Virus record (IMG/VR): IMGVR_UViG_3300046028_011447
Span: 1 to 24,385 of that record
Direction: 5' to 3' (one strand)
Source: a virus
DNA: 24,385 nt
The notes below the pieces were generated by a model that was given only the letters and a program-made list of their open reading frames with translations, had not been told where the DNA came from and made no database searches. Positions 4,978 through 9,210 of the stretch are shown here, piece after piece. Made by a program: the position numbers and the translations under genes. Position 1 is the stretch's first letter; every line of letters starts with the position of its first letter.

Positions 4978-5283
4978 ATGATTATTACAAAAAAAGAACT
5001 AGAAAAATTACATAAAGATTTTGCCGGACTTTTTGAGAAAAAATATCTGATTAAAATGGGATTTTTTAAGCACCCACAGCACGGATTAGTGGTGTTGGTG
5101 AATGTATCAGTAATGAATGGATGCGGGGATGGTCAGGAGTTTTTAACTCTTGATTTTGCCAGCAAACTTTTAAAAGAGCCAAAAGAGTTGGAACAATATT
5201 ATCTTCGCTGGCAACGAGGTTTCGCTTCTGCGAAAATGACGCCAACTTTGGATTTATCTTTAACAACAAAAACAATTCAATAA
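4978..5283 (+). CDS. Hypothetical phage protein, 101 aa
   Basis: I do not recognise this gene. It starts one base after the SNF2 stop (TAATATG), so translation is likely coupled to the helicase gene. The N-terminus is a charged helix (TKKELEKLHKDFAGLFEKKY), followed by a hydrophobic beta stretch (HGLVVLVNVSVMNGCG) and a helical C-terminal part with YYLRWQRGF. The hydrophobic stretch is too interrupted for a confident membrane segment. The position suggests a partner or modulator of the helicase, which is inference from context only. Confidence 0.65.
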   Translation: MIITKKELEKLHKDFAGLFEKKYLIKMGFFKHPQHGLVVLVNVSVMNGCGDGQEFLTLDFASKLLKEPKELEQYYLRWQRGFASAKMTPTLDLSLTTKTIQ

Positions 5284-5763: not shown

Positions 5764-6252
5764 ATGAAATTTGAAACCGAGTCTATTGTCAATTGGGCCC
5801 AAAATACAACTAGGCCAGAACCAGTCTTTCGGGATCTGCAGCTTTGCTTTTACTTAACAAGGTACGAAAAAGGCATACTTTTGCACTTATTACCGAGTGT
5901 AAATTTTTTGATCGTTCGCGACCCAATGGTGCCTGATTTTTATCACATCAGCTGTAAACATACAGAATTTGCGGAAGCAAATCGTTGGTTTAATTACCAA
6001 AAAGCAGCAGAGCTTGAAAGCCTTATTAATTTTTCAAAAGAAAGAGCGAATCGGATTGCCGAGCCACGACCAGAAATAAGACAGGCAGAAATGTCTGCAC
6101 AATTCTTTAAAGAAAAAGAAGAAAGAGAGGCAAAGTTAGCAAAAAAGAAGAAAGAACTGGAGGAAAAACAAAAAGAAGAAAAAAGAATTGCGGACGAAAA
6201 AGAAGCGGAATTACAAAAAGTGATTTCATATTTTTATATCCGAAATAATTAA
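5764..6252 (+). CDS. Hypothetical protein with charged helical tail, 162 aa
   Basis: Not recognised. The first 90 residues look globular and contain aromatic, His and Cys residues (DLQLCFYLTRYEKGILLHLL; YHISCKHTEF). From about residue 100 the protein becomes a highly charged Lys/Glu helix, probably coiled coil. It ends in a short aromatic tail (YFYIRNN). The start ATG is three bases after the previous stop with no clear ribosome binding site. Neighbours on both sides are also coiled-coil or low-complexity proteins, so this may be a set that works together; that is inference. Confidence 0.65.
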   Translation: MKFETESIVNWAQNTTRPEPVFRDLQLCFYLTRYEKGILLHLLPSVNFLIVRDPMVPDFYHISCKHTEFAEANRWFNYQKAAELESLINFSKERANRIAEPRPEIRQAEMSAQFFKEKEEREAKLAKKKKELEEKQKEEKRIADEKEAELQKVISYFYIRNN

Positions 6253-6810: not shown

Positions 6811-7986
6811 ATGAAACACTCACATTACGGAGCGAGTTCAGCAAATAGGTGGCTAAACTGTCCAGGGTCCATATCTTTAATAAAAGACATACCAGCACCA
6901 GCACCGAACCCACATGCTATGGAAGGGACTCGAGCACATAATTTAGCGGAATATTGTTTAAAAAATAGCTTTGATGCTATAGATTTAATCGACGAGGATT
7001 TTTCCGGAGAACCCGTTATACAAGATATGGCGGAAGCCGTTCAGGTATATCTGGATTATATCCGAAAACAATCGAGCAGATCAGCAGTTAAAGTTATGGT
7101 CGAAACACAATTTTCGCTAGACCACATCCATAAAGGTATGTTTGGGACTAATGACGCGTGTTTGTTCGACTCAATGCTGGATACTCTCGAGGTGGTTGAT
7201 TACAAACACGGTGTAGGTGTAGTAGTTTCACCCGAAGAGAACGAACAATTAATGTATTATGGATTAGGTGCGGCTATTCTATATAAGCTACCATCTACAG
7301 CCAGAGTTATTTTAACCATCATTCAACCAAGAGCAATGGGGCAAACCATTAAGACTTGGGAAACTACCGCGGGATTCTTGTATGATTTCGGCGAAGAATT
7401 AAGACAAGGTGTTGAAAGGACCAAGATCAAAAACCCAAAACTAAAAGAGGGCGATTGGTGTAGGTTTTGTCCGGCTTTGGCGACTTGTCCACAAGTTAAC
7501 GCTACCGCACTATCTGTGGCTCAAGCTCAGTTCACTGATGGCGAACTCATATTGGGCACTCCTGAAGAAGCGGTCAATCAAAAATTAGTCGACATCAGCA
7601 AAGTGTTGCAATATGCACCATTAATTACCAGCTGGTTTAAAGCGGTTGAGAGCATGGCCTTTCAAATGGCTAATTCTGGAATACCAATTGAAGGCTACAA
7701 ACTTGTAAAGAAAAGAGCAAATCGTGTTTGGAAATATGAACCCGACGAACTCGAGCGAGTCTTAATCCAATCAAACGGTAATAAAAAAGATACTAACTGG
7801 TTTACTGAACCAAAAATGAAATCTCCGGCACAATTGGAGAAAATTTTCGGTAAAGATTTTATTGGCAATCTCTGTGAGACGCCCGATAATGGAAACACTC
7901 TTGTCCCTATTTCGGATAGAAGGCAAGAGGTGAAAATAGAAACCCTTGAATTTGATGTGATCGATTTCGACACATTGAAAGAGTAG
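6811..7986 (+). CDS. DUF2800 protein, PD-(D/E)XK / Cas4-like nuclease
   Basis: A 391-aa member of the DUF2800 family (PF10926), part of the PD-(D/E)XK nuclease superfamily related to RecB, AddB and Cas4 nucleases. It probably processes DNA ends or flaps during phage replication or recombination. It opens with HYGASSANRWLNCPGS (5-20) and an early GTRAH motif (39-43). The likely catalytic block is GTNDACLF (112-119) followed by EVVDYKHG (127-134), giving Asp115, Asp130 and Lys132, with QLMYY (146-150) as the following conserved element. Cys17 plus Cys217, Cys220 and Cys226 (CRFCPALATC) match the four-Cys iron-sulfur arrangement of Cas4/AddB-type nucleases. The gene starts two bases after its neighbour. 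Its stop codon immediately precedes a structured non-coding stretch. Confidence 0.9.
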   Translation: MKHSHYGASSANRWLNCPGSISLIKDIPAPAPNPHAMEGTRAHNLAEYCLKNSFDAIDLIDEDFSGEPVIQDMAEAVQVYLDYIRKQSSRSAVKVMVETQFSLDHIHKGMFGTNDACLFDSMLDTLEVVDYKHGVGVVVSPEENEQLMYYGLGAAILYKLPSTARVILTIIQPRAMGQTIKTWETTAGFLYDFGEELRQGVERTKIKNPKLKEGDWCRFCPALATCPQVNATALSVAQAQFTDGELILGTPEEAVNQKLVDISKVLQYAPLITSWFKAVESMAFQMANSGIPIEGYKLVKKRANRVWKYEPDELERVLIQSNGNKKDTNWFTEPKMKSPAQLEKIFGKDFIGNLCETPDNGNTLVPISDRRQEVKIETLEFDVIDFDTLKE

Positions 7987-8107
7987 GGGATAGCTCATAT
8001 AGACTCTGTCGAACAGCAGGGTGCGAAACATACTGCACAGGTAGGCTATCTTAAACCGACATCTACCTAAGTATGTTATGTTCTGACAGCTCGGAAAGCT
8101 ACGGGCA
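7987..8107 (+). ncRNA. Candidate structured RNA A, 3' of the DUF2800 gene
   Basis: This non-coding stretch is about 46% G+C, clearly above its surroundings, and has dense complementarity. Nested stems: 8006-8015 with 8079-8089 (10 bp, one bulged base at 8084), 8027-8034 with 8070-8077 (8 bp, perfect), and 8039-8044 with 8063-8068 (6 bp, perfect). The terminal loop 8045-8062 can pair outward twice: GCTATC (8045-8050) with GATAGC (7989-7994), a pseudoknot, and CCGA (8056-8059) with TCGG (8091-8094). GTGC (8021-8024) with GCAC (8035-8038) is a further option. No open frame crosses the region. I cannot match it to a known class. It could be a cis element of the downstream small gene, a 3' processing element, or a free phage RNA. 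The strand is assumed from the flanking genes. Confidence 0.55.
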
Positions 8108-8133
8108 ATTTTATTAATTTAACTTTATAAAAT

Positions 8134-8445
8134 ATGGAAATTATTATTGTGTTAACAGTTGCGTTATTGATTAATATAACAATCTGTGCGTTTTCGGACG
8201 AATATACAGATCTACATGCTGCTTCAGGAATGTTATCAATTATTTTTTTAATCTTGTTCTCATTAGCTCTGACATGCTTAATCCAATCGAGTAAAACAGC
8301 TCAATATTTAAATAAAACTTATAATACAAAATACACTGCCCAAGATATTTTTTGGAATGAAAAATTAATTATGAGTAAATTAAAAATCGAAGATAACATA
8401 ATTGACGATAGTTCTAAAATTAAATTGGAATTAATCAATAAATAG
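8134..8445 (+). CDS. Small two-TM membrane protein, 103 aa
   Basis: The function is unknown. Two hydrophobic segments are visible: residues about 2-20 (EIIIVLTVALLINITICAF) and 33-50 (MLSIIFLILFSLALTCLI). A soluble tail of about 50 residues follows, containing NKTYNTKYTAQDIFWNE and an acidic, Lys-rich end. With a short loop between the helices, both ends would be on the same side, probably the cytoplasm. The gene is isolated between two non-coding, apparently structured stretches, unlike the packed genes elsewhere in the block. The start ATG has no Shine-Dalgarno sequence (TTTATAAAATATG). It lies within the replication module, yet nothing ties it to replication; membrane anchoring of replication or superinfection control are possibilities only. 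Confidence 0.7.
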   Translation: MEIIIVLTVALLINITICAFSDEYTDLHAASGMLSIIFLILFSLALTCLIQSSKTAQYLNKTYNTKYTAQDIFWNEKLIMSKLKIEDNIIDDSSKIKLELINK

Positions 8446-8455
8446 AAAATAGAAT

Positions 8456-8592
8456 AAGGCGGGTCGCTCCCGCAAGTGGTTTTGGAACGGAGAAATCCGC
8501 ACCAGTCCAAAACGGCTATATTGATGAAAAAACATCTTAGGCGATTAGACGCTGAAAGTCCGCTGATTTCTAACTTGGTAAGTGGAGCCAAA
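8456..8592 (+). ncRNA. Candidate structured RNA B, 5' of the DUF2815 gene
   Basis: A second non-coding stretch, about 47% G+C. Visible elements: a strong hairpin GCGGG (8459-8463) with CCCGC (8469-8473); a stem 8479-8486 with 8506-8513 (8 bp, perfect) enclosing CGGA-GAAA-TCCG (8488-8499), a GNRA-type tetraloop hairpin; GATG (8523-8526) with CATC (8533-8536) around an A6 loop; TTAG (8537-8540) with CTAA (8570-8573) enclosing GCG/CGC and GAC/GTC pairs around 8541-8563; and GGCT (8514-8517) with AGCC (8586-8589) closing the last domain. It ends about 35 bases before the DUF2815 start. A long 5' leader element controlling the ssDNA-binding protein is the simplest reading. No known riboswitch consensus is recognised. 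Confidence 0.55.
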
Positions 8593-8625
8593 ATACTTTT
8601 TTCAACATTTAAAACATTAAAAAAC

Positions 8626-9210
8626 ATGTCAAAAATAAACATAACGCCAATGGGCAGAATTTCTTATCCATATCTTTTCAAAGCTAAACGCAACGGACTC
8701 AACAATAAAGACGAGTATACTGTGGACATCTTATTCGTTAAAAATGAGGACCCTAAAAAAGACCCAATTAACGCGATCCACAATGCGATAGAAGAAGCTA
8801 TTAAGGAGAAGTGGCCAAATAAAAGGCCACCTAATCTTATTATACCAGTTAAAAACGGGGATTTGCCTAAGCCCAAAGCGGGCACGCCTTATGATGAGGC
8901 ATATCACGGTTGCTGGTTCATCACTTTAAAGAATAGTCGTAAACCACAAGTGGTCGACGCCAACAAACAAGAAATCTTGGATGAAGGCGAAGTCTATGGT
9001 GGTTGCTACGGCAGAGCCAGCTATACCGCTTATGCTTACGACACTAAAGGTAATAAAGGGGTATCGCTATCTCTTGTGCACTTCCAAAAAATTAAAGATG
9101 GTGAGGCTTTTTCCGGAACGCACTCGACTGCTGAAAATGATTTTGATGTGGTGTCTGATGAATCGGATAATCCGTCAAATTATTCGCCTAAAAATTCAAT
9201 GTTAAGCTAA
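8626..9210 (+). CDS. DUF2815 protein, probable ssDNA-binding protein
   Basis: A 194-aa DUF2815 family (PF10991) protein, a likely OB-fold single-stranded DNA-binding protein of the T7 gp2.5-like group that coats template during phage replication. Recognisable features are the N-terminal block MGRISYPYLFKAKRNG, the middle motif AYHGCWFITLKNSRKPQVVD (about 91-110), the family signature EVYGGCYGRASYTAYAYD (122-139), the NKGVSLSLVHFQKIKDGE stretch, and an acidic disordered C-terminal tail (DFDVVSDESDN). The start at 8626 is chosen because family members begin here; an upstream extension to a GTG at 8476 would translate the structured RNA stretch. The stop overlaps the polymerase ATG by one base (TAATG), indicating coupled expression of the SSB-like protein and the polymerase. 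Confidence 0.9.
   Translation: MSKINITPMGRISYPYLFKAKRNGLNNKDEYTVDILFVKNEDPKKDPINAIHNAIEEAIKEKWPNKRPPNLIIPVKNGDLPKPKAGTPYDEAYHGCWFITLKNSRKPQVVDANKQEILDEGEVYGGCYGRASYTAYAYDTKGNKGVSLSLVHFQKIKDGEAFSGTHSTAENDFDVVSDESDNPSNYSPKNSMLS

Follow-up and report, generated by a model that had tools for sequence, protein, structure and literature searches.

What is the gene-free stretch that follows the DUF2800 gene of this phage: a functional RNA, and if so of what kind, or incidental DNA that happens to fold? The source record is a 24.4-kb virus contig of a podovirus-like phage, and by the window we mean the whole stretch analyzed (24,385 nucleotides). Its + strand codes for a primase/helicase, a SNF2-type helicase, a DUF2800 exonuclease, an Enc34-type ssDNA-binding protein (DUF2815), a family A DNA polymerase and RuvC; after these replication genes come virion genes on the - strand, including one for an internal virion protein. 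No + strand genes are found in the gap at 7987-8133, which holds the candidate termed RNA1, and a second gap (8446-8625) lies between a 103-aa ORF and the DUF2815 gene. The local arrangement is as follows:

6811 to 7986, + strand: DUF2800 exonuclease-like gene (PF10926, phrog_69), upstream of RNA1
7987 to 8107, + strand: RNA1, candidate structured RNA, gene-free, G+C 0.47
8134 to 8445, + strand: 103-aa ORF with a hydrophobic N-terminal half and a weak match to phrog_8077 (unknown function)
8456 to 8612, + strand: RNA2, a second noncoding stretch of raised G+C that precedes the ssDNA-binding gene and contains several hairpins (z of about -2 on folding)
8626 to 9210, + strand: gene for the DUF2815/Enc34-type ssDNA-binding protein (PF10991, phrog_112)
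7987 to 8625, + strand: 639-nt segment made up of RNA1, the 103-aa ORF and RNA2, missing in close relatives

The G+C content of 7987-8107 is 0.471 against a window mean of 0.353, a value equally high in 1.2% of 121-nt windows; this bears out the preliminary description of the locus as a gene-free gap with raised G+C. Few gaps in the + strand gene cluster are as large as that of RNA1. Alignment of the polymerase recovered about 27 close relatives (54-66% polymerase identity), and in 23 loci, some of them near-duplicate contigs, both DUF2800 and DUF2815 could be placed. The two genes are spaced by no more than 40 nt in 21 of the 23, and the other two (L134 and L137) carry a different ORF between them; hence, as judged from these sequences, 7987-8625 is a lineage-specific segment. 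The 103-aa ORF has no homologue in the phage collection or the loci of the relatives. The intervening ORF of L137 contains a near-perfect inverted repeat of GAAGCA repeats (5053-5134), which yields spurious microRNA matches. Viruses nearly identical to this one do exist in the collection: L186 (record G001) and the window share 97% identity in the helicase gene, and the L186 contig, which ends at about window position 6168, before RNA1, yields no homologue of the latter.

The preliminary description drew RNA1 as a set of nested stems, and all 24 of its nested pairs are present in the sequence:

8006 to 8089, + strand: long irregular hairpin of 24 pairs in three stacked stems, pairs checked
8006-8010/8085-8089 and 8011-8015/8079-8083, + strand: outer stem, with U8084 bulged
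8027-8034/8070-8077, + strand: middle stem
8039-8044/8063-8068, + strand: inner stem

These stems enclose a terminal loop of 18 nt that includes GCTATC and CCGA. The + strand of RNA1 has a minimum free energy (MFE) of -31.9 kcal/mol, with a z of -1.43 and 14 of 200 shuffles equal or better; a rerun gave a z of -1.13. In the comparison with shuffled sequence that had been put forward as a check, the + strand folding energy is ordinary, with a z of about -1.1 to -1.4 that is not significant. In the MFE fold the outer stem is swapped for other hairpins (e.g., at 8089-8106), and forcing the described stems while optimizing the rest gives -28.8 as against -31.9 kcal/mol. The - strand folds better than the + strand (z -3.06; 0/200 shuffles as good). 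The accompanying claim that so much complementarity is unusual for chance fares better in one respect than in another. The outer stem alone is matched by just 0.3% of shuffles (p 0.003), and none of 300 shuffles reaches RNA1 when the outer stem and the inner hairpin are scored together with the pairing of the loop to the 5' flank, a summed score designed post hoc with the sequence already seen; in contrast, the + strand energy and the pairing of the loop CCGA with TCGG are ordinary. Taken together, the high-G+C noncoding insertion, the excess complementarity of the outer stem and a 19-nt element held in common with the structured leader of a relative make a real structured phage RNA at RNA1 plausible.

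Searches for known families and genes place some bounds on what this RNA could be. In a cmscan with all 4227 Rfam families, nothing in the window matched at E<=1, and a cutoff of E<=10 for 7960-8640 brought up unrelated families alone; the self-cleaving ribozyme families of Rfam (hammerhead, twister, HDV-like and others) gave no match either. No tRNA or tmRNA was found. If real, RNA1 would be a structured RNA element that belongs to none of the Rfam families. It had no relative by blastn among 50,697 phage records, and a single-sequence covariance model, searched against 57 loci and 18 whole records, did not find it a second time. No full-length homologue that could serve a covariation analysis was found in phages, viral contigs or the records of relatives. 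DNA patterns modelled on RNA2 and on RNA1's apical loop, when scanned over viral contigs, hit only unrelated chance places, and an 18-nt version of the core occurs at six places in bacterial genomes, about the chance expectation, none of them RNA1-like. Readthrough of the DUF2800 stop codon via a 3' pseudoknot was rejected: past the TAG at 7984 the frame runs on for just 27 codons, and the DUF2800 protein of a relative terminates at about the same position. So was a small coding gene, given that in both phages, as read from the sequence, stops lie shortly before the 19-nt match in its frame.

What, then, connects RNA1 to other phages? The 19-nt element has the following copies:

8080 to 8098, + strand: GTTCTGACAGCTCGGAAAG, with an exact copy in L135/L136 (SNF2 leader, 1323-1341)
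L137, 548 to 563, helicase leader: two-edit copy of GTTCTGACAGCTCGGAAAG

The exact match to L135/L136 has an E of about 5e-4 among the close relatives. The copy in L136 lies on the same strand in the noncoding leader of the SNF2 helicase, 36 nt before the start codon, and that of RNA1 lies 35 nt before the start codon of the 103-aa ORF. Across 2.18 Mb of loci, the places within an edit distance of two, besides RNA1 and L135/L136, are two internal to DUF2800 genes of distant phages and the L137 helicase leader, the only other noncoding one (shuffle p 0.002, for one of 13 leaders tested). The element is present as a single copy in both the whole window and the L136 record. Half of it forms the 3' strand of the window's best stem. 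Outside the 19 nt, no alignment of RNA1 with the L136 leader rises beyond chance. In L137, a second TTTGACAGCTC stands upstream of the element with no complementary strand, and there is no obvious partner for an outer stem, so that the element may work in some form other than a helix. In terms of sequence, the 19-nt core suggests a link between RNA1 and the diverse structured helicase leaders of the relatives, for which we delineated the following stretches:

L113, 1245 to 1548: SNF2 leader
L114, 1600 to 1781: SNF2 leader
L117, 1360 to 1563: SNF2 leader
L128, 1687 to 1851: SNF2 leader
L134, 743 to 920: SNF2 leader
L136, 971 to 1377: SNF2 leader
L137, 364 to 875: SNF2 leader

In most relatives, a TTGACA-type promoter upstream of the SNF2 gene is followed by a noncoding leader with hairpins and then by about 22-45 nt of A/C-rich sequence without a Shine-Dalgarno motif before the start codon; the window's own helicase gene has the promoter but lacks the structured leader. 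Several leaders fold far better than their shuffles, with z values of -6.2 (L117), -5.4 (L193), -5.0 (L190 and L170), -4.3 (L114), -4.0 (L191) and -3.9 (L122); those of L113 and L136 do only slightly better, and those of L182 and L209 no better. Most of the leaders do not resemble one another in sequence. An alignable subfamily (L117, L122, L190, L193, L194 and L195) retains two hairpins, a long irregular one near the expected transcript start and a second one, and a few of the changes in them are compensatory; the L117 leader has no Rfam match. In the L136 leader, a hammerhead-like core (CTGATGA..GAAA..GTC at 1232-1307) has pairing strands at its flanks, one stem being mismatched (A-A) at its base; the core was set aside as a ribozyme, there being no Rfam match and such cores occurring about once per 40 kb. 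In the helicase leader region of L137, positions 620-698 are a tRNA according to Rfam but not according to ARAGORN.

Based on these observations, we tentatively favor, with somewhat less than even confidence, the reading of RNA1 as a cis-acting intercistronic RNA element of the inserted cassette, either an RNase III-type processing/stability hairpin or a leader. Briefly, RNA1 would be a structured element of the phage early mRNA that either arrived with the cassette between DUF2800 and DUF2815 or was kept within it only in this lineage. Its long irregular hairpin would form just upstream of the 103-aa ORF of the cassette and would most likely act in the manner of T7-type intercistronic hairpins or of a 5' leader, being cut by host RNases or shielding the transcript from them. 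About 36 nt of unstructured sequence free of a Shine-Dalgarno motif would then remain, where ribosomes could load to translate the downstream gene. The stems, the noncoding insertion, the 19-nt element with its similar spacing and the strongly folding helicase leaders are shown by the sequences; transcription of RNA1 and its folding as drawn, a role for RNase III or any other nuclease, and a pseudoknot are inferred. In favor of the cis-acting element are: (i) stems that are real, with an outer stem and architecture rare in shuffles; (ii) the absence of the segment in 21 of the 23 relatives, together with a 19-nt match that has a start codon about 36 nt downstream of it in each phage; (iii) the strongly folding, promoter-led helicase leaders and the compensatory changes in their alignable subfamily. 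It is weakened by the + strand energy, which is not significant and is bettered by the - strand, by the lack of a whole-length homologue or of any RNA1-L136 similarity beyond 19 nt, and by the L182 and L209 leaders that do no better than shuffles.

T7-type phages have intercistronic RNase III processing hairpins. By shape, RNA1 is akin to these: a long irregular hairpin (about two helical turns; 24 possible pairs, though not in the MFE fold) that directly precedes a gene, in a gap of an early transcript presumed to be polycistronic, in a podovirus-like phage. It differs in its possible pseudoknot and in the 3' 19-nt element that it has in common with a relative. The put-type antiterminator RNA of HK022 is likewise a structured RNA of an early phage transcript; however, put sites directly follow early promoters, whereas RNA1 lies deep inside an operon. 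Closer at hand, the helicase leaders of the relatives (L117, L122, L136, L137, L190, L193 and others) resemble RNA1 as structured noncoding stretches that end tens of nt upstream of a start codon lacking a Shine-Dalgarno motif, with the 19-nt element in L136 and its near copy in L137. Yet these leaders precede another gene, mostly follow a sigma70-like promoter and are without overall sequence similarity to RNA1. If RNA1 is real, its 19-nt link suggests that these phages may commonly exchange early-mRNA structure as a module.

The ordinary + strand energy makes chance foldability a serious rival. On this account, RNA1 would have no RNA function: it would be an incidentally foldable stretch in recently acquired, slightly G+C-richer DNA, and the 19-nt match a leftover of modular recombination or a coincidence. 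The missing homologue and the chance-level CCGA/TCGG pairing fit such an origin as well as the energy does, but the outer stem (p 0.003), the scarcity of gaps of such size in the + strand gene cluster and the placement of both the exact and the near 19-nt match in helicase leaders do not, and we hold it to be unlikely, if the least so of the rivals. Were it to be correct, it would be a caution that nested stems and loop matches picked out by eye where a gap has raised G+C may not beat chance folding energy.

The loop raises a further question, namely whether RNA1 is pseudoknotted, as the preliminary description proposed. The loop complementarities that were claimed are there in the sequence:

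7989 to 7994, + strand: GATAGC, possible pseudoknot arm, partner 8045-8050, chance probability 0.06
8045 to 8050, + strand: GCTATC, terminal loop, partner of 7989-7994
8056 to 8059, + strand: CCGA, terminal loop, proposed partner TCGG at 8091-8094, P 0.43

The second of these arms, CCGA/TCGG, is expected by chance at this P and was dropped. The GATAGC arm has a competing pairing (TAGCT 7992-7996 with AGCTA 8098-8102). Thus, of the pseudoknotted RNA originally pictured, a structured RNA remains plausible, while one arm falls to chance level and the pseudoknot, via the 6-bp pairing of loop and 5' flank, is possible but unproven. A bolder extension would make RNA1 one representative of an undescribed, fast-evolving pseudoknotted class of this phage group (an aptamer, ribozyme or factor-binding leader) that has UCUGACAGCuCGGAAAG as its conserved 3' core and a loop pairing to the 5' flank, moves between genes of an aquatic podovirus group and controls the gene just downstream. 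The conservation of the 19-nt core speaks for it, as does L136, where the elements come in the same order and a hairpin loop before the same 19 nt can pair over 9 bp with an upstream strand (0/300 shuffles match). However, those L136 strands can alternatively make one plain nested hairpin, the L136 version of the outer stem is weak (p 0.34), RNA1's second loop arm has no counterpart there and the class would be founded on two sequences only; we consider it improbable.

The identity of the 19 nt within two otherwise unlike surroundings could also reflect a DNA or RNA binding site (an operator, a site for a phage factor or the like) amid incidental folding, which would suit L137, with its second TTTGACAGCTC and no complementary strand. 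Against this, each record (window and L136) has but one copy, and the window's best stem uses half of the 19 nt as its 3' strand; we regard such a site as decidedly doubtful. Only slightly less probable still is a weak attenuator, for which the relevant feature is:

8089 to 8106, + strand: GCTCG-GAAAGCTA-CGGGC hairpin, then AATTTTATTA; weak intrinsic-terminator-like, from a consensus scan only

This hairpin with its AATTTTATTA would end or pause transcription before the 103-aa ORF, the upstream pairings being alternative folds. The region holds five such terminator-like matches against 0.7 in shuffles, and the CCGA/TCGG loop pairing would exclude the hairpin; on the other hand, the hairpin has only five pairs, its T-run is broken, and it is not kept in L136, where no T-run follows the element.

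Finally, the DUF2800 RNA of Weinberg and colleagues, a structured noncoding RNA reportedly located upstream of DUF2800/DUF2815 genes, has such phage genes nearby as RNA1 does, but the membership once suggested by the adjoining DUF2800 gene can scarcely hold: RNA1 has no match up to E 10 in the Rfam copy said to include the class, lies downstream of DUF2800, on the opposite side from that reported, with the 103-aa ORF between it and DUF2815, and is missing from relatives with the same gene pair. As for the other noncoding part of the cassette, a likeness of RNA2 to a hairpin of the L113 leader, seen by eye, was not significant. The RNA2 region (8446-8625) has a GCGGG-UCGCU-CCCGC hairpin, a GAAA-capped hairpin and more stems, and a 120-nt stretch starting at 8407 folds with a z of -4.4.
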